Below, one piece after another: positions 3,254-23,472 of a DNA stretch of 37,564 nt. The stretch spans positions 1 to 37,564 of IMG/VR virus record IMGVR_UViG_3300010430_000223; one strand, 5' to 3'. Source of the stretch: a virus. Under the pieces are notes generated by a model. That model was not told the DNA's origin, did not search any database, and saw only the letters and a list, made by a program, of their open reading frames with translations. The translations under genes were made by a program, and so were the position numbers. Position 1 is the stretch's first letter. Every line of letters begins with the position of its first letter.

Positions 3254-4050
3254 TAGAAAGCCCTATTTAAAACGTCATTAAGTGATTGTTGTGGTTGATG
3301 TACTGCCACTTGCTGGCCATTAGGACCACTATTTTTAGCAAAGTAATCCACTTCAATCGTGGTCCAGCCAGCATCACATTGTTTACTAATAGCGTAATCA
3401 GGCGCAGTGTTGCCAGTGGTCCGTAAAGTTTCAAGTGTTGCTTCGATTCGCTTTAATGCTCTATCAGAATCACTTGCTCCTTTTCTGGTCCTAAGCTTGG
3501 ACCATTCAAGCAATAGTTCATCATCAATGCAATTCAATGCTGGATAAGCTTCTGAGTTATCACGGACCTTTTTTGCTAATAACTCAGCCTTGGTTAATTT
3601 CTTTTGAGGTGAAACCTCTTCTTTATCTGTTCTATTCTCTTCTGTTCTATTCTCTTCTTGCATGATTAATCCTGATTGAGTCATGATTGAGTCATGATTT
3701 TTATTCATTGCCTCGATGGCCTTTCTCATTTCAGGATTGGAAGTCATTGATTTATTTAGTCTTTTTGCCAACCGCAGGCAGGTTATCAATCCGTCATTAT
3801 TTTGAAAAAGGCCTAAATCAACAAAGCGAGTCATCATTTCAGTTACTTTCTGGGCAGTGCTTCCAGTGTTTCTGGCAATTATTCGAGCGTCATGCTCAAG
3901 ACTAAAAGTAAGGTTTTCAGCATCAACCTTACCAGCTATTAATTCTATGCAATACCAGTAAAGACCGTATCCTTCCAGTCCATAATCAAGCATCACTTCC
4001 TGAAGCTTTGCGTCCATACTTGCATCCGTGTCGTGCTTAAACCATTTCAT
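3253..4050 (-). CDS. Replication initiator, DUF4373/Lin1244-type (lambda O analogue)
   Basis: The N-terminus (MKWFKHDTDASMDAKLQEVM, then YGLEGYGLYWYCIELIAG) matches the DUF4373 N-terminal domain found in phage and plasmid initiators. A charged repetitive linker (EENRTEENRTDKEE) follows, then a C-terminal domain that would contact the loader. Like lambda O, the gene contains tandem direct repeats in its middle (3626-3694), where an origin would be expected. It overlaps KilA-N by one base (TAATG) and ends at the start of the winged-helix gene. The role as initiator is inferred from family and gene order. Confidence 0.75.
   Translation of the reverse strand: MKWFKHDTDASMDAKLQEVMLDYGLEGYGLYWYCIELIAGKVDAENLTFSLEHDARIIARNTGSTAQKVTEMMTRFVDLGLFQNNDGLITCLRLAKRLNKSMTSNPEMRKAIEAMNKNHDSIMTQSGLIMQEENRTEENRTDKEEVSPQKKLTKAELLAKKVRDNSEAYPALNCIDDELLLEWSKLRTRKGASDSDRALKRIEATLETLRTTGNTAPDYAISKQCDAGWTTIEVDYFAKNSGPNGQQVAVHQPQQSLNDVLNRAF
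3626..3700. repeat. Tandem repeats inside the initiator gene (candidate replication origin)
   Basis: Two exact adjacent 15-bp copies of TCTGTTCTATTCTCT (3626-3640 and 3641-3655) are followed by two exact adjacent 11-bp copies of TGATTGAGTCA (3673-3683 and 3684-3694) and a partial third running into an AT-rich stretch. In lambda, iterons within gene O form the origin. The same arrangement here makes this the best origin candidate in the window. Confidence 0.5.
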
Positions 4051-4661
4051 TATTTAACAGCCTTTAAAATAGCAAGCCTTACAGCCTCATCGTTATTATT
4101 TAAAACATCAGCCAGCAAGCCAATATCATTATGAAGTTTACTTCTGAGCTTTAATTGATCCTCAGTTGCTGTATTCCAGTCGGTAACATTGCAGGCCATT
4201 TTTATTTTTCCAGCAACGTCCTGAACGTAGTTATTGAAGCCATACTTATTACCTGCATGGGCATATAAGCAGCCACACATTTTTTTATAACTGTCTCCAG
4301 ATTCATTTCTGTATTTGATTAACTGATCAAACATCCATTCATAAACTTCAACTTTTAGTTTTGGGTTTATTGCTAACGCCATATCAATAAACAGTAGAGG
4401 GTGAACCCATGTGTGCTTACCTCGGCCTCTGGCAGATTTTTTTACCTCACCTTTTCCGAACCTTCCTTCTAGCTCAGCAATAAAGTCTTTAGTTCCTTTT
4501 GTTTGAAACCATGCTGACATATCAAAACCTTGAAGTCCGTTAGCCATTCGCCACATATTGCCAACCCTAACAAGGTCGGTAGCGCTAAACATTTCGGTTT
4601 GATTGTTTTGACTGACTGAACCGCCTAGTAATTCTCGCTGAATTAAAACTGTGCTTTTCAT
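4050..4661 (-). CDS. KilA-N domain protein
   Basis: 203 residues. The KilA-N DNA-binding domain covers most of the N-terminal half: MFSATDLVRVGNMWRMANGL, then GRGKHTWVHPLLFIDMALAI and VEVYEWMFDQLIKYRNESGD. A C-terminal helical tail follows. KilA-N proteins are nucleic-acid-binding phage regulators of poorly defined role. It is the first gene after the promoter at 4697-4724 and leads the replication operon. AAGGAAAG lies just before its ATG. Confidence 0.8.
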   Translation of the reverse strand: MKSTVLIQRELLGGSVSQNNQTEMFSATDLVRVGNMWRMANGLQGFDMSAWFQTKGTKDFIAELEGRFGKGEVKKSARGRGKHTWVHPLLFIDMALAINPKLKVEVYEWMFDQLIKYRNESGDSYKKMCGCLYAHAGNKYGFNNYVQDVAGKIKMACNVTDWNTATEDQLKLRSKLHNDIGLLADVLNNNDEAVRLAILKAVK

Positions 4662-4696
4662 GACTTTCCTTTAATTAATTACCCATAGAAGGCATG

Positions 4697-4724
4697 ATTA
4701 TATAATAACCTTTTAAAAGGTCAA
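4697..4724 (-). promoter_or_regulatory. Strong leftward promoter with palindromic operator
   Basis: The minus strand reads TTGACC, a 16-base spacer, then TATAAT: close to sigma70 consensus. The spacer contains the perfect 14-bp palindrome ACCTTTTAAAAGGT (4708-4721), whose right half overlaps the -35 box. It drives kilA-N and the replication genes. The shared AAAGGTCAA half-site with the promoter at 520-547 suggests common repression. Confidence 0.7.
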
Positions 4725-4794
4725 TTAGTTATTTTGCTTTTTGTGGGTATTTTACTATGTAGCTATTTCTTTCTATTGGTCAAATTTCAGCCAC

Positions 4795-4814
4795 AAAAAA
4801 GCCCAATTAAGGGC
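4795..4814 (-). terminator. Rho-independent terminator, leftward
   Basis: On the minus strand GCCC-TTAATT-GGGC is followed by six T. It ends the operon of small genes running 5738 to 4846, just before the kilA-N promoter. Confidence 0.75.
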
Positions 4815-16151: not shown

Positions 16152-17531
16152 ATGGCTAATGTAAAATTCATTCATCCAGATTATGCCGCAAAGGTCGATA
16201 ACTGGGTAAAAACAAGGCTGGCATGTAGCGCTAGTGGAATTAAAGATGCCGGCGTAACTTATCTGCCAATGGCATTAGATAAAGATCAGGATAAATATAA
16301 CGCATATAAAAAGCGAGCATTGTATCTTGGTGTAACTGGTCGCACTCGGTCGGCGTTGGTTGGTGCTGCTTTCCGTGTTGAGCCTTCCTTTAGTGAAGAT
16401 TTGCCGACTCAAGCTGAGTTTGTCAGTGATGATTTTGACGGCTCAGGAATGTCGGTTGATCAAGTATCAAAGCGAATAGTAAGCGAGGTTCAAACAACAG
16501 GCCGCCATGGTTTGCTGGTTGATTTTCCTAGCCTGCCAGACGGGGTTAGCCGAGAGGAGGAAGATTCTCTTGGGGCACATCCTTATGTTGCCGCTTACAA
16601 TGCCGAGTCAATTATTAACTGGGAGGAATCCAAAGTTAATGGAAAGACTCAGTTGTCAATGGTTGTGCTAAAGGAAGTTACACAAGAGTCGGTTGGCGGT
16701 GATGAGTTCGAGAAAGAGCAGGTTGTTAGATACCGCTCATTACAGCTGATTGATGGTCTGTATGTTGTTCGCCTATGGGATGAAGGAGGCGAGCAAATAG
16801 GTGGTCCGGTAGAGCCAAGGATAAAAGGCGAGAGGCTTAACTTTATCCCGTTCTATTTCACAGGCTCGGAAGACAATAAGCCTTGCGTTGATGAAATACC
16901 GCTAGAGCCAATTGCCGAGATTAATATAGGGCATTATCGAAACTCAGCAGACTACGAGAAAAACCTTTTCATTCATTCGGGCGGCTTGATTGTCGTATCC
17001 TCCAGTATGGATGGTGCAGAATGGAATGAGGTGAATCCTAGCGGGGTTGTTGTTGGTGCTGATAGCGGCCTAAAACTAAATCAGGGCGATGGTGCAGAGC
17101 TATTGCAGCTAGACCCTGCGCAAGCTGTTGATGAGGCTATGAGGCGCAAGGAGGAGCAGATGATTGCTATCGGCGCACGACTAATTACCAGTGGCGCCAT
17201 TAACGAAACAGCGGAAGCGGCTAGAATATCCGCCAGCTCTGAGACATCAACACTATCAACCATTGTCGGCAACACAGAAGAAACAATAAACAAGGTTTTA
17301 TCTGTAATGGGCTTGGCTTTAGGCGTTGATATGCCGGTGTATAAAATGAATCGAGACTTCTTTGATTCAAGCATGACGGCTCAAGAGTTTATGGCTATTA
17401 ATGTGCTGTATGATTCTGGTCACATTGCCCAGTCAGATTTGCGCGGGATATTGCGAAAGAATGGCGTTGTTGAATCATCCAGGACTGATGCTGACATTGA
17501 TAATGAGCGCTCGCAGGCCAGTATTGTATGA
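16152..17531 (+). CDS. Portal protein, DUF4055 type
   Basis: 459 residues. The start (ADYAAKVDNWVK-like, here HPDYAAKVDNWVKTRLAC) and YKKRALYLGVTGRTRSALVG match the DUF4055 family, which serves as portal in many siphoviruses. It would form the dodecameric DNA gate at the capsid vertex. It overlaps the head morphogenesis gene by four bases (ATGA). Confidence 0.85.
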   Translation: MANVKFIHPDYAAKVDNWVKTRLACSASGIKDAGVTYLPMALDKDQDKYNAYKKRALYLGVTGRTRSALVGAAFRVEPSFSEDLPTQAEFVSDDFDGSGMSVDQVSKRIVSEVQTTGRHGLLVDFPSLPDGVSREEEDSLGAHPYVAAYNAESIINWEESKVNGKTQLSMVVLKEVTQESVGGDEFEKEQVVRYRSLQLIDGLYVVRLWDEGGEQIGGPVEPRIKGERLNFIPFYFTGSEDNKPCVDEIPLEPIAEINIGHYRNSADYEKNLFIHSGGLIVVSSSMDGAEWNEVNPSGVVVGADSGLKLNQGDGAELLQLDPAQAVDEAMRRKEEQMIAIGARLITSGAINETAEAARISASSETSTLSTIVGNTEETINKVLSVMGLALGVDMPVYKMNRDFFDSSMTAQEFMAINVLYDSGHIAQSDLRGILRKNGVVESSRTDADIDNERSQASIV

Positions 17532-18799
17532 GCGCTACCGGCTATCTAATCGACGCAACCACTAGGCACGCTATATTCGTTGAGCGATACGGACACGGGC
17601 GATATAACGACCTAGAGCCTATTCTTAATGATATGCGTGATAAGCTGGTGGCTCGATTGAGCCGCGAGGATTTGACCGACTTTCAGTTTGTGCGGGCTCA
17701 GGCTTTATTGGCTGATGTTGATGATATTCTTGCGGGCAGCTTCCAGCAGTTCGAGCTTGATCTAGGCGGCTACATTGAGGAATTTGCAGAGTATGAGGCG
17801 GGATTTAATTACCGAATGCTGCAAGGCGCTGTAAAGGTTGAGGTTGATATTCCGGCTATTGAGCAGGTCAATGCTGCTCTAAATAATACCAGCATGGTGC
17901 TAACTCAGGACAATGGCGCAGAGCAGCGCTTAACTATCCAGCAAGCTATAGAGCAATTCAGTGCTAAGAAGTCGCAAGAGGTTAGATCTCTAATTCAGCA
18001 GGGCTTAATAGGTGGCGAGACTACCGACGATATAACAAGGCAGGTCATTAATAGTGTTGAGCGAAAGATTAATAAAACCGTCAAGGCTCAAGCTAGGTCA
18101 CTGGTGTCGACTACGATTAGCGCGGCATCGAATCAGGCGCACAATCAAACAGCTAGGGCAAATAGCGATGTATTGCGAGGCGAGCAGATAATAGCGACCT
18201 TAGACAGCCATACAAGTGACATCTGTATAAGTGCTGATAAGACTATCTGGCCTGTTGACGAAGGGCCCTTTCCGCCGCTTCATTGGAATTCTTGCGCCAA
18301 GGATACTAAGGTCAGAACAAACCGAGGGCAGATTTCAATTCAAGATGTGAAAGTTGGCGATTATGCGATTACCCATAACGGCCACTACAAGCGAGTGTAT
18401 GCTGTAATGGCCAAGCCTTTTGATTCTAAAATGTTTGAGTTAGTAGATAATTTCGGTAAAAGGGTTAGGCTTACGGACTCTCACCCGGTACTTACAATCA
18501 ACGGCTGGAAGAAAGTCAGGGATATTAAAGCTGGGGACAAGATTTTTAATTATTCTAAAAAGCTTTTCACCTTTTACCACTGGTTTATCGGCTCTCTTGT
18601 TGAAGAACAAGTCCTGATCAATTCTCACAACAGTAAAACCGAGGCCGCAGAGGAATTCGTCTCTTACAGTGTCGGAAGCTTCTCTACTGGCATGTCCTCT
18701 GCCGTCAAGCTCGATGATGACATTACCACCAACAAGAAAGTCTCCAATGTATTTCTCAAGCCGTGGCTGAAACTCAAAAGAGTTATTGGACTTGGTTAG
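17528..18799 (+). CDS. Head morphogenesis protein (MuF/SPP1 gp7-like), N-part fused to split-intein N domain
   Basis: Residues 1-255 are the first part of a minor capsid protein of the Mu F/SPP1 gp7 type, ending SDICISADKTIWPVDEGPFP then PLHWNS. This family normally continues into a conserved cysteine (PPLHxNCR). Instead the frame enters an intein at Cys256 (18293): block A CAKDTKVRTNRG and block B VRLTDSHPVLTINGW, then AGDKIF. After about 90 intein residues the frame runs for 78 more codons antisense to the endonuclease gene and stops at 18799. About ten in-frame stops follow before the C-part, so the two halves are separate translation products that need trans-splicing. Confidence 0.85.
   Translation: MSATGYLIDATTRHAIFVERYGHGRYNDLEPILNDMRDKLVARLSREDLTDFQFVRAQALLADVDDILAGSFQQFELDLGGYIEEFAEYEAGFNYRMLQGAVKVEVDIPAIEQVNAALNNTSMVLTQDNGAEQRLTIQQAIEQFSAKKSQEVRSLIQQGLIGGETTDDITRQVINSVERKINKTVKAQARSLVSTTISAASNQAHNQTARANSDVLRGEQIIATLDSHTSDICISADKTIWPVDEGPFPPLHWNSCAKDTKVRTNRGQISIQDVKVGDYAITHNGHYKRVYAVMAKPFDSKMFELVDNFGKRVRLTDSHPVLTINGWKKVRDIKAGDKIFNYSKKLFTFYHWFIGSLVEEQVLINSHNSKTEAAEEFVSYSVGSFSTGMSSAVKLDDDITTNKKVSNVFLKPWLKLKRVIGLG
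18293..18562 (+). other. Split intein N-terminal domain (IntN), about 90 aa
   Basis: A HINT-fold N-half with Cys1 as nucleophile, the block A pattern and the block B TxxH (TDSHP) that assists the first N-S shift. Its length of about 90 residues is in the range of natural split-intein N-halves (gp41-1 type, about 88). The catalytic residues needed here are all present. Confidence 0.85.
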
Positions 18800-19186
18800 G
18801 ATGTCTATAAATAGAGACTCATGGAAGGTGGGATTTTTCTTTAATGTATTTTGCAGTGAGTTTAGGATTTTATCCCTGATTGCCGGATTGCGCGCTGGGT
18901 TGTTTTCCTTCATTGCTCGTGAATGCTGCTCGGCCAGTCTCTTGCTTGCCTCTAAGTTATTCATCCGCCAGTGGTCTTTTCCTTTTGGGTGCGGGCAGTG
19001 TTTTTCGTTATCCAAAAGAGACTGGCTTCTGGTTTTTGTCTTTATTCCTAGTTTTACACATCGCTTGCGAATAGTATCATTAGATAACCCATTTTCGCGC
19101 TCTATTAATCTGAGGCTTTTTCCATGAATCCAGTGATCATTTTCAACAAGCTTTATAATTTCTTCATCGGTCGTGTATTTAGTCAC
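18440..19186 (-). CDS. Homing endonuclease, Vsr/DUF559-like, antisense inside the fractured gene
   Basis: 248 residues on the strand opposite the capsid gene. The GTG start at 19186 has GGAGG seven bases upstream. The N-terminus is HTH-like (RLIERENGLSNDTIRKRCVK). A NUMOD3-like segment (MKENNPARNPAIRDKILNSL) follows, then a Vsr-type nuclease core: NPTFHESLFIDIL, RLEKYIGDFLVGG, VIIELDGRGHASR, RDEFLCGLGFTVVRIDQD. E, D and H sit as in the EDxHD/Vsr-related endonucleases described in fractured genes. The last 35 or so residues are antisense to IntN and may be incidental. It could be transcribed with the leftward cassette 20822-19500. Confidence 0.8.
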   Translation of the reverse strand: MTKYTTDEEIIKLVENDHWIHGKSLRLIERENGLSNDTIRKRCVKLGIKTKTRSQSLLDNEKHCPHPKGKDHWRMNNLEASKRLAEQHSRAMKENNPARNPAIRDKILNSLQNTLKKNPTFHESLFIDILTKSNNSFEFQPRLEKYIGDFLVGGNVIIELDGRGHASREASDTVRDEFLCGLGFTVVRIDQDLFFNKRADKPVVKGEKLFRIIKNLVPSFNIPDFLPAVDCKYRVRVRKPNPFTEIIY

Positions 19187-19513
19187 TTCTTTACCTCCAC
19201 AATCATTAGTAGTGCAGAAGCTTATTATGAAGGCTATGTTTATAATTTGTCAATAGAAGATGATGAGACGTACTTGGCAGATGATATGATAGTGCATAAT
19301 TGCCGGTCGCTTAGGGTGATGTTAGTTGAGCCTAAGTATTCAGTACCAGGCTTAGAAGGCACTAGAGCCAGCGAGTCCGGGCCTGTGTCGGCTAATTTAA
19401 GCTATAGAGGTTGGCTAAAACAACAGCCAAAAGAGGTAAGGGAGCGAGTCAATATTAAAAAGACCTACTCCCTTGCAGAGCTTGCGGCATTGGAGCCAGT
19501 TACTTTTCTTTAG
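19124..19513 (+). CDS. Split-intein C domain fused to C-part of the head morphogenesis protein
   Basis: It is in the same frame as the N-part but separated by stops. ATG 19124 has GAGG eight bases upstream, although the first 25 residues are antisense to the endonuclease start and could be spacer; the true start may lie nearer 19199. Block F (EGYVYNLSIEDDETYLADDM) and block G (IVHN then Cys) form IntC, ending at 19300. The C-extein starts with CRSLRVMLVEPKYSV and has 70 residues, giving a spliced product of 325 residues, close to SPP1 gp7 (about 308). Confidence 0.8.
   Translation: MNPVIIFNKLYNFFIGRVFSHFFTSTIISSAEAYYEGYVYNLSIEDDETYLADDMIVHNCRSLRVMLVEPKYSVPGLEGTRASESGPVSANLSYRGWLKQQPKEVRERVNIKKTYSLAELAALEPVTFL
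19199..19300 (+). other. Split intein C-terminal domain (IntC), about 34 aa
   Basis: Blocks F and G are present, with the penultimate His and terminal Asn (HN) directly before Cys+1. About 34 residues is the usual IntC size. It completes a class 1 intein with IntN at 18293-18562. Confidence 0.8.
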
Positions 19514-19703
19514 GGTAGTGGCTTAAATCCGGTAGCGGCTCAAGGCATTTTTTGGGTCGTGTTAGCTTGTCAGATAGGGGTTTTAGCACTTCAAACTTAG
19601 CTAGCGTCATAACCTCATCACCTGACTCAACCCTTTCGCAAACTCCTTGCATTGCGTAAAGCATTAGGTTTAGCTCATCATCCGTAAAAGTAAAAGTGTT
19701 CAT
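19500..19703 (-). CDS. Hypothetical protein, 67 aa (leftward cassette)
   Basis: Last gene of a leftward cassette of five. ATG 19703 follows GGGAGTATAAA and overlaps the upstream gene (ATGA); a longer frame reaches 19724. It begins MNTFTFTDDELNLMLYAMQG and is helical. It overlaps the capsid C-part stop by 14 bases, tail to tail. No family recognised. Confidence 0.6.
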   Translation of the reverse strand: MNTFTFTDDELNLMLYAMQGVCERVESGDEVMTLAKFEVLKPLSDKLTRPKKCLEPLPDLSHYPKEK

Positions 19704-19948
19704 TTTATACTCCCGTAAGTGCATGATTTTATCGATCTATTGAATACAGTCTCATTGGTATCATCCATTGCCATGTGCAAGGACGAATAAAGCGAGTTAA
19801 TATTGTCGAGGCTTCCTGAAAATAAATATCTAACGCCATTACTCATCCATAGGACAATTCGACTATCTAGATCGCTATTAAATCTATCAAAGTTAGATAT
19901 GTATTTTCCATTAAGTGTTATTCCTAAATGCTCAAATACTATTTTCAT
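19700..19948 (-). CDS. Hypothetical protein, 82 aa (leftward cassette)
   Basis: A small protein beginning MKIVFEHLGITLNGKYISNF, with a beta-rich start and a helical end. It is coupled by an ATGA overlap to the next cassette gene. Function unknown. Confidence 0.55.
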   Translation of the reverse strand: MKIVFEHLGITLNGKYISNFDRFNSDLDSRIVLWMSNGVRYLFSGSLDNINSLYSSLHMAMDDTNETVFNRSIKSCTYGSIK

Positions 19949-19963
19949 TGATATATCCTTTGG

Positions 19964-20383
19964 TTAGCTCCACATCTGATTATAAATACTAGGCTGGGAT
20001 TCTATTGCCTCTTTTTGGTGACGCTTTTCTTCTTCTTGCGTTGCTGCAATCGTCAGTTCCTTTATTTTTTTAGCTGCCTCTATTCTTTCATCTAGTTCGT
20101 ATATCCTGTGAAATCCTCTCCCGCCTATGAGCGCAAGAAAAAACGACCCGTCTTTGAAACTAACACTGATTGGTCTTGGGTCGCCATAGTGGTATCCGTC
20201 AAGCCTTTGAATAAACATTATGTCAATGCCTGTTTTGGTTGATTGGATATCTATGGTTCCTAGGTCGTCTTTTAGTTTGTGGATACCAAAGCCCAGGATG
20301 GAGACTGCTTTATCTATAAACGATGTATTAAAAGGAACGTCAGAAATACCCATTATTTCTAGTTGCCTGTCAAGATAACTCAT
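19964..20383 (-). CDS. Hypothetical protein, 139 aa (leftward cassette)
   Basis: The largest cassette gene. Beta-rich body (TGIDIMFIQRLDGYHYGDPR) with a charged helical C-terminus (EEEKRHQKEAIESQP). ATG 20383 overlaps the upstream stop (ATGA). I do not recognise it. Confidence 0.55.
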   Translation of the reverse strand: MSYLDRQLEIMGISDVPFNTSFIDKAVSILGFGIHKLKDDLGTIDIQSTKTGIDIMFIQRLDGYHYGDPRPISVSFKDGSFFLALIGGRGFHRIYELDERIEAAKKIKELTIAATQEEEKRHQKEAIESQPSIYNQMWS

Positions 20384-20529
20384 TCCTCACCCTCCAATAT
20401 AGCCAAAATCTGGCCTTTCTTCTTAATTGCCACAATCAGCCCTTGCTTATCATAAAGAAGCTCACCTTCTCGGATAGCCTCTTTGCGAACATGAAAGGAT
20501 GGCTTGCTTGGCTTTTTATTGTTTTTCAT
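20380..20529 (-). CDS. Small basic protein, 49 aa (leftward cassette)
   Basis: Begins MKNNKKPSKPSFHVRKEAIR and ends in a short beta-rich part (GLIVAIKKKGQILAILEGEE). ATGA overlaps with both neighbours show that it is part of the same translated cassette. The basic start may contact nucleic acid. Confidence 0.55.
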   Translation of the reverse strand: MKNNKKPSKPSFHVRKEAIREGELLYDKQGLIVAIKKKGQILAILEGEE

Positions 20530-20822
20530 CTGCCTTCTTCAATAATTGAAAAGTCAGCAGTTCGGCACATGTTTGTTAGTGACACCAGAAAACCTCCTAA
20601 AATCCTAGAGGCTTCTTTTATTTCAATATCTGTAAATTCATGGCTTTTATCTATCATCACCAGAGATACAAGGTCAGCGTAGGCACACTGTATTTCCATA
20701 CCAAACTGAAGTAGTTCATTTCTGATTGAATCATCTATTAATAGTTTATTAGGCACGATAAACCCCTCTAGTTTTAAATTAAATAGCTCACTATCAAAGC
20801 CTATCACCATGGTGTTTATCAT
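20526..20822 (-). CDS. Hypothetical protein, 98 aa (first gene of leftward cassette)
   Basis: First gene of the leftward cassette, mixed alpha/beta, beginning MINTMVIGFDSELFNLKLEG. The start codon lies within a perfect 12-bp palindrome TTATCATGATAA (20816-20827), a possible autoregulatory site. The ATG at 20810 is an alternative start. I see no convincing leftward promoter in 20823-20933. Function unknown. Confidence 0.55.
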   Translation of the reverse strand: MINTMVIGFDSELFNLKLEGFIVPNKLLIDDSIRNELLQFGMEIQCAYADLVSLVMIDKSHEFTDIEIKEASRILGGFLVSLTNMCRTADFSIIEEGR

Positions 20823-22677: not shown

Positions 22678-23472
22678 ATGAGCACTATAAAAGTAGGTGA
22701 CAGGTTCGGCTCGCTAGTTGTGTCCGAGTTAAGTCTTGGTAAAAGACAAAACGGCAAGCCTAAATATATGGCGCTGGCAATCTGTGATTGCGGTGGGTCG
22801 TCATTAGTTGAAAGGCACAACCTTACGGCAGGTAATACAAAGCAGTGCCAGTCGTGCGCCAGACTTTCTAGGGGGGAAGGCAGGCGCACTCATGGTAACT
22901 CAATGTCATTTAAAGACAGAGACCCTATTGGATATAACTGCTATACAAGATGGCAGTCAATGAAGCGTAGATGTAATAATCCAAATGACAAAAGGTTTCC
23001 TGATTATGGCGGTCGAGGTATATCTGTATGCTCTGATTGGCTCGATTCATACGAGTGCTTTCTGTCAGATATGGGGCTGCCTCCATCCAGCAAACATCAA
23101 TTAGATAGGCGTGATAATAACGGAAATTACTGCAAGGAAAATTGCCGCTGGGTTACGCCAATTAATAACGCAAGAAACAAGCGAAACAATCGATTAATAG
23201 AAATAAATGGAGAAACAAAAACTCTTGCTGAATGGTCGGAGATTAGTGGTATTGAATATCACACCTTAAAGGCAAGAATAAATAGGGGCGTCTTACCAGA
23301 AAAAGCCATAAAAAACGGAAGGCTAAAAAGTAAGTATATTTACTCAACGCCTAATGGTGATTTCGATAGTTTGAGTGAAGTTGCCAAGTCGTATACAATG
23401 TCTATAAGCGGGGTTAATGGTAAGTTCAATAATCCTAAATTCAAGGAATGGGTGAAGCATGAAAGAACCTAA
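22678..23472 (+). CDS. HNH homing endonuclease with zinc knuckle and C-terminal DNA-binding modules
   Basis: 264 residues. The N-terminal zinc-binding part has CDCGG and CQSC. The HNH core includes YTRWQSMKRRCNN, YGGRGISVCSDW, and HQLDRRDNNGNYCKENCRWV, ending RNKRNNR. The C-terminus carries two NUMOD-like modules (TLAEWSEISGIEYHTLKARI and DSLSEVAKSYTMSISGVNGK). It sits alone between the capsid gene and the connector genes, as an intergenic homing endonuclease would. The cut site is probably near this junction in related phages; that is inference. Confidence 0.85.
   Translation: MSTIKVGDRFGSLVVSELSLGKRQNGKPKYMALAICDCGGSSLVERHNLTAGNTKQCQSCARLSRGEGRRTHGNSMSFKDRDPIGYNCYTRWQSMKRRCNNPNDKRFPDYGGRGISVCSDWLDSYECFLSDMGLPPSSKHQLDRRDNNGNYCKENCRWVTPINNARNKRNNRLIEINGETKTLAEWSEISGIEYHTLKARINRGVLPEKAIKNGRLKSKYIYSTPNGDFDSLSEVAKSYTMSISGVNGKFNNPKFKEWVKHERT

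Follow-up and report, generated by a model that had tools for sequence, protein, structure and literature searches.

A phage MuF gene divided between two candidate split-intein halves, with a putative Vsr-like homing endonuclease gene on the opposite strand

How does a phage make a head protein whose gene is broken in two? The question is raised by a 37,564-nucleotide stretch of viral DNA (IMG/VR record IMGVR_UViG_3300010430_000223; the whole stretch is called the window here), in which a MuF head-morphogenesis gene at 17528-19513 is split into one open reading frame (ORF) for the N-extein and an N-terminal intein half (IntN), and a later ORF for a C-terminal intein half (IntC) and the C-extein. 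We propose, with a probability of roughly 0.8, that this is a mobile MuF intein with a nuclease gene on its opposite strand, that the intein was split in the lineage of the window and that its halves trans-splice to yield a MuF protein of 324 amino acids. Trans-splicing is the best explanation because both intein halves are under purifying selection.

All three ORFs that a sequence-only reading had located here were confirmed (Table 1). The IntN and IntC ORFs are in one frame, and a PF14890 match at 18386-19300 crosses 10 in-frame stops; with the other Pfam and PHROG matches, this supports that reading's proposal of a split intein in a MuF gene with separately translated halves. The PF04233 MuF domain is present with its terminal HxxCR motif, as are the blocks A, B, F and G, the TxxH and HN motifs and the Cys+1 of a HINT splicing domain. 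An intact nuclease ORF with a DUF559 match and a good ribosome site (GGAGGT) lies between the two intein ORFs and overlaps each of them on the opposite strand, which bears out the antisense Vsr-related nuclease claimed from the letters alone. A conserved gene is cut by intein halves in separate ORFs, then, with an endonuclease gene between them. Since the three Pfam matches are independent and four further loci are alike, the arrangement is well above chance.

The sequence-only reading had also suggested a search for homologues with an uninterrupted gene. We found nine IMG/VR relatives with an intact 320-amino-acid MuF gene (68-87% identical), in which the site reads H-x-x-C-R-S; hence, the intein-free (empty) site is defined. 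The window junction reads HWN-S-C-AKDT ... VHN-CRS. We compared the start residues of about 45 inteins at the MuF site and found that the Snoke-type inteins have Cys straight after HxN (C L L G D T), whereas the subfamily of the window has Ala (Ser in the window) preceding the Cys (A C L K G T). Two subfamily members have no Cys after the Ala (L084, AIAQGG; L085, ALRKGT). Profile alignment with BIL4 (2LWY) places the query Ala opposite the chain Ala before FVAGT, which is taken to be the mutated Cys1 of BIL4. Because the empty alleles read HxxCR, the relatives continue from HxN with Ala and then Cys, Ile or Leu, and BIL4 aligns in this way, the intein most likely starts with the Ser at 18290-18292, one residue before the Cys. 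Hence, splicing would restore HWNCRSL and give a product of 254 + 70 = 324 amino acids.

The sequence-only reading had instead taken the Cys as residue 1, in which case trans-splicing would leave an extra Ser (HWNS joined to CRSL, 325 amino acids). Neither the Cys1 start nor the 325-residue product is supported, and this form of trans-splicing is unlikely: a Cys does stand at that place in most subfamily members, but L084 has Ile and L085 has Leu there with the preceding Ala/Ser retained, the block A spacing to Thr6 fits Ser1, and the empty alleles and the BIL4 alignment point to the Ser. The other subfamily members that were read have Ala1, as in class 2 inteins, and L084 and L085 have it without Cys2. 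For Ser1 in the window, the candidate chemistries are class 1 splicing with Ser1 or direct attack by Cys+1. A class 3 intein (block F Cys, WCT) was rejected, as block F reads VYNLSIEDDETY, without Cys.

With the antisense ORF as query, tblastn matched three cultured Vibrio phages at 46-51% identity, with at least 97% of the ORF aligned. In these phages, the nuclease lies within one unbroken coding sequence (CDS) of about 700 amino acids that carries the annotation 'coil containing' or 'hint domain'. A similar but more divergent antisense ORF is present in E. coli phage Snoke and in Vibrio phage 1.197.A. Further searches yielded 103 phage records, 56 + 3 viral loci and then 3 more, and 7 bacterial contigs; a single-sequence nuclease search of viral contigs returned nothing, so that the viral loci came from searches with alignments, and no nuclease of the window type was found among genome contigs. 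In more than 100 phage records and about 60 metagenomic loci, a Vsr-like nuclease is encoded antisense within an uninterrupted MuF intein, in exact codon register. The feature tables that were read list a single CDS for the gene, labelled head morphogenesis, MuF, minor capsid, capsid maturation protease or hypothetical, and none of them annotates the nuclease. The fracture described by the sequence-only reading stands, but the antisense nuclease alone does not break the gene, as the intein frame of most relatives is unbroken. Antisense nucleases in MuF inteins were also seen in L086-L092, on contigs of Actinobacteria, Firmicutes, Gemmatimonadales, Phaeospirillum, Rubellimicrobium, Solirubrobacterales and Scytonema, with zero intein-strand stops in all.

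Because the codon register is exact, stops on the intein strand can arise only from the nuclease codons TTA, CTA and TCA. We found 0 of these codons in 41 continuous-intein loci vs 254 expected from local codon usage, a comparison in which the combined probability is not literal as the loci are related. Single AT-rich loci nevertheless suffice to establish stop avoidance (21, 16 and 15 stops expected in L028, L073 and L012, respectively, and 0 seen). Chance openness of the antisense frame, as in GC-rich genomes, is possible for single GC-rich loci (0.2-2 stops expected) but not for AT-rich ones such as L028. Substitutions between related phages fall mostly at intein-strand third positions in the flanks and at first positions, which are the third positions of the nuclease, in the overlap; between L077 and L079, the counts by codon position are 24/20/90 before the overlap, 76/18/55 inside it and 4/4/29 after it. 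Hence, the nuclease is the protein under selection in the overlap, and the intein strand is merely held open there. Spurious antisense similarity that mirrors intein-strand conservation was rejected, given the third-position peak of the nuclease and the Pfam and PDB matches on its strand. In the AlphaFold2 model of a continuous homologue (L019), the two HINT halves are confident and are joined by a 212-residue linker with a predicted local distance difference test score (pLDDT) of 22-39; the top match of its HINT fold is the gp41-1 split intein, with BIL4 also among the best. It is likely that phage MuF inteins form a large class with a nuclease overprinted antisense in exact codon register, in which only the avoidance of three nuclease codons keeps the host protein whole, and that one lineage of Ala1/Ser1 type has escaped by splitting of the intein.

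Within the nuclease subfamily of the window, four other loci share its fractured layout (L017, L018, L083 and L084) and five are continuous (L012, L013, L014, L019 and L085). In a middle zone of 110 codons, the window, L017, L018, L083 and L084 have 10, 5, 11, 13 and 5 stops vs 8.0, 7.1, 8.6, 7.8 and 4.6 expected, respectively, for a total of 44 vs 36, and 0 stops elsewhere. As these counts are near expectation, stops are neutral in this zone. The continuous subfamily loci have 0 stops there vs 35.5 expected. The stop-avoidance constraint is lost only in the fractured lineage and only in this zone. The IntN tail (the next 117-122 codons) has 0 stops vs 30.3 expected in the five fractured loci; it is free of stops despite lying beyond the HINT half and in a linker that is predicted to be disordered (L019). 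In the window, L017, L018 and L083, the IntC ATG lies opposite a nuclease CAT His codon just before GKSLR, a position at which the five continuous loci have Asn, Asn, Leu, Leu and Ser. In L084 (nuclease at 4001-4744), the ATG is a few codons further on with a weak ribosome site, so this locus may be decaying or may use other starts.

Nonsynonymous divergence (dN) is below synonymous divergence (dS) in both halves. For the sister fractured loci L018 and L083, dN/dS values are 0.22/1.83 for IntN and 0.05/0.69 for IntC; for the window and L017, they are 0.33/1.47 and 0.19/1.96, respectively. The C-extein has dN 0.02-0.03 and dS 0.54-0.58 relative to L002 and L003. Since dN is far below dS between L018 and L083, both halves have kept a use after the split, provided that the two loci share it; a single origin of fracturing may apply, which the tree allows but does not establish.

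These results bear on the alternative that the intein is decaying, with the gene broken, splicing lost and the phage either defective or content with the N-terminal part alone. The ten stops of the middle zone, a number close to the neutral expectation, would suit decay, and real decay occurs in the family, as L022 (nuclease at 1141-1860; left out of the analysis) has a frameshifted MuF gene and a stop in the nuclease. However, both halves and the C-extein show dN well below dS or a third-position excess, sister fractured loci included, the stops are limited to one zone with none in the IntN tail or IntC, IntC has a start codon and a Shine-Dalgarno sequence, and the layout is found on five separate contigs. 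Hence, decay is quite unlikely.

Several points weigh against a split, trans-splicing intein. The openness of the IntN tail has no explanation under it, the correlation between the His codon and the ATG (4/5 fractured, 0/5 contiguous) is partly phylogenetic, and the stop counts come from related loci that are not independent. In addition, the IntC ribosome sites of L018 and L083 are weak (about -2.5 kcal/mol), and L084 has weak ribosome sites for both IntC and the nuclease and is without the consensus promoter.

It is very unlikely that an intron in the gap rejoins the halves at the RNA level and makes trans-splicing unneeded. Vsr-type nucleases do occur in group I introns as well (I-Bth0305I), but Rfam scans at gathering and relaxed thresholds found no RNA family at the site, so group I and group II introns were rejected; moreover, the gap is entirely taken up by the nuclease ORF, and its in-frame removal would still leave intein sequence in the protein. 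A sequencing or assembly artefact can be dismissed: although the window is a single metagenomic contig, its ten stops, the undamaged gene that overlaps them and the recurrence of this form at four independent loci from other metagenomes argue against one.

The opposite-strand ORF encodes a putative Vsr/DUF559 (EDxHD/PD-(D/E)XK-like) homing endonuclease with an N-terminal helix-turn-helix. Profile searches matched 3HRL (5e-9) and I-Bth0305I (3R3P, 7e-5), and the AlphaFold2 model (pLDDT 84) has as its top Foldseek match the catalytic domain of I-Bth0305I (3R3P; E 5e-3, probability 1.0), the type enzyme of the EDxHD family (PMC3943268). Residues E123, D149 and E159 are invariant across seven relatives; with the matches to 3R3P, this gives a Vsr-like fold with an acidic active site, as in EDxHD/Vsr-like homing endonucleases. 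The nuclease is probably expressed from its own promoter inside IntC, judging by a promoter-like TTGACA-18-[CT]ATAAT element that starts 67 bases ahead of the nuclease start codon (window, L017 and L018) or about 70 bases ahead of the first ATG (L083). Consensus scores, which do not prove function, are 11/12 for the window and L017 and 12/12 for L018 and L083, vs 8-10/12 for the continuous loci and L084. The element occupies the IntC block F codons TTG TCA ATA.

Empty alleles occur beside filled ones (the nine relatives of the window), and K1ind2 and Snoke are likewise an empty and a filled allele (PMC6776784). Between L012 and L013, the region at about 3800-4800 (intein and nuclease) is 97-100% identical, vs mostly 65-92% for the MuF flanks, a pattern that points to recent transfer of the element.

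In the proposed model, a phage MuF gene would have been invaded, between its conserved HxN and C(R) codons, by a mobile intein with a Vsr/EDxHD-type nuclease on its opposite strand. The ancestral layout, kept in most relatives, would be an unbroken intein in which the strand opposite the nuclease gene encodes only a disordered linker between the HINT halves, with the frame held open by nuclease avoidance of stop-forming codons. In the lineage of the window, this constraint would have lapsed and stops filled the middle zone, and the ATG opposite the nuclease His codon would start a separate IntC-C-extein ORF. We infer this direction, from continuous to split, from how widespread the continuous form is and not from a rooted tree. 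The two proteins would associate via their HINT halves and join HWN to CRSL, and the nuclease would cut intein-free MuF alleles and so drive homing.

In 2009, Dassa et al. (NAR 37:2560; cited in PMC12350094) reportedly described, from 26 loci, genes fractured by split inteins and accompanied by Vsr-related endonucleases. The sequence-only reading likened the window to them, and the likeness holds: a conserved phage gene is split by intein halves, with a Vsr/EDxHD-type endonuclease gene between them and endonuclease-associated control elements. Taking the 2009 set in its general description only, the window differs in its gene, which is for MuF head morphogenesis instead of a DNA-metabolism enzyme, and in its nuclease, which lies antisense across parts of both halves and is related to many nucleases within uninterrupted inteins. 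The split form in a head-morphogenesis gene stands as claimed, but a MuF-gene intein is itself not new, as a contiguous one is known from Escherichia phage Snoke and Salmonella phage LSPA1, with no endonuclease noted by the authors (PMC6776784). That intein has the same insertion site, between HPN and CRST, and a Vsr-like ORF runs antisense to it in the same register; unlike the window, it is a single continuous ORF with Cys1. The nuclease shares its fold, conserved Glu positions and multi-domain layout with I-Bth0305I (EDxHD, phage group I intron, 3R3P), whereas its host element is an intein on the opposite strand and its DNA-binding part differs. The HINT fold and blocks A, B, F and G are shared with the gp41-1 split intein (6QAZ/6RIZ) and BIL4 (2LWY), but these start with Cys1, while the window subfamily starts with Ala1 and the window with Ser1. 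Ala1 (class 2) inteins such as Mja KlbA (2JMZ) are alike in the profile match, the missing Cys1, the Cys+1 nucleophile and the retained TxxH and HN; unlike Mja KlbA, the family of the window is split or carries an antisense nuclease, and the window has Ser1.

An antisense free-standing homing endonuclease gene is known in T4 segD (PMC2988022); we found no paper describing one antisense inside an intein, in an incomplete coverage of the literature. An antisense, dual-coded nuclease would be a means, so far unremarked, by which a selfish intein carries its endonuclease. Standard annotation misses the nuclease, since every feature table read has one long head protein, and the intein would pass as nuclease-free. 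The series of empty, continuous and split forms at one site offers a route to asking how split inteins arise and, if the proposal is true, a direct path from mobile continuous inteins to natural split inteins. It also provides candidate natural split inteins with an unusual start (Ala1/Ser1) for protein ligation, and cultured phages with the continuous form (Vibrio 1.266.O, 1.082.O and 1.265.O; Salmonella/E. coli Guernseyvirinae) make that form testable now.

Table 1. Features of the divided MuF locus in the window.
Feature	Coordinates	Strand	Details
ORF 1: N-extein + IntN	17528-18799	+	423 aa; PF04233 1.3e-7; PHROG 241 head morphogenesis 1e-62; HINT blocks A, B
N-extein, MuF/gp7-like, residues 1-254, end HWN	17528..18289	+	PF04233, PHROG 241; intact homologues L002-L010, 68-87% identical
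IntN splicing half, 88 codons, Ser1-Cys2, blocks A + B, TDSH	18290..18553	+	Hint_2/Intein_splicing matches; BIL4, gp41-1 alignment; L019 AlphaFold2 HINT fold; dN<dS
IntN C-terminal tail, antisense to nuclease domain	18554..18799	+	ends TAG 18797-18799; stop-free in 5/5 fractured loci
Fracture zone	18797..19123	+	10 in-frame stops between ORFs
Putative homing endonuclease ORF	19186-18440	-	248 aa; GTG start; DUF559 (PF04480) 3.6e-11
Nuclease Shine-Dalgarno GGAGGT	19193..19198	-	duplex -10.6 kcal/mol
Promoter-like TTGACA-18-CATAAT, inside IntC block F codons	19224..19253	-	11/12 consensus score in window
IntC Shine-Dalgarno-like GAGG, before ATG	19112..19115	+	duplex -5.6 kcal/mol, near best 5% of background
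ORF 3: IntC + C-extein	19124-19513	+	129 aa; HINT blocks F, G (PF14890); MuF C-terminus
IntC part: ATG, leader, blocks F + G, end HN	19124..19300	+	PF14890 3.8e-5; homologous ATG in L017, L018, L083
C-extein, Cys+1 CRSL..., 70 aa + stop	19301..19513	+	PHROG 241 4.8e-9; 96-97% identity to L002/L003 C-terminus

Between the MuF and scaffold genes, the minus strand at 19500-20822 has ORFs of 74, 82, 139 and 98 amino acids, and the three of these four that were searched gave no PHROG match. Directly after the major capsid gene, at 22678-23472 (+), a 264-amino-acid HNH endonuclease (PHROG 3377/374, E about 1e-56) gives the head gene cluster its second putative homing endonuclease.

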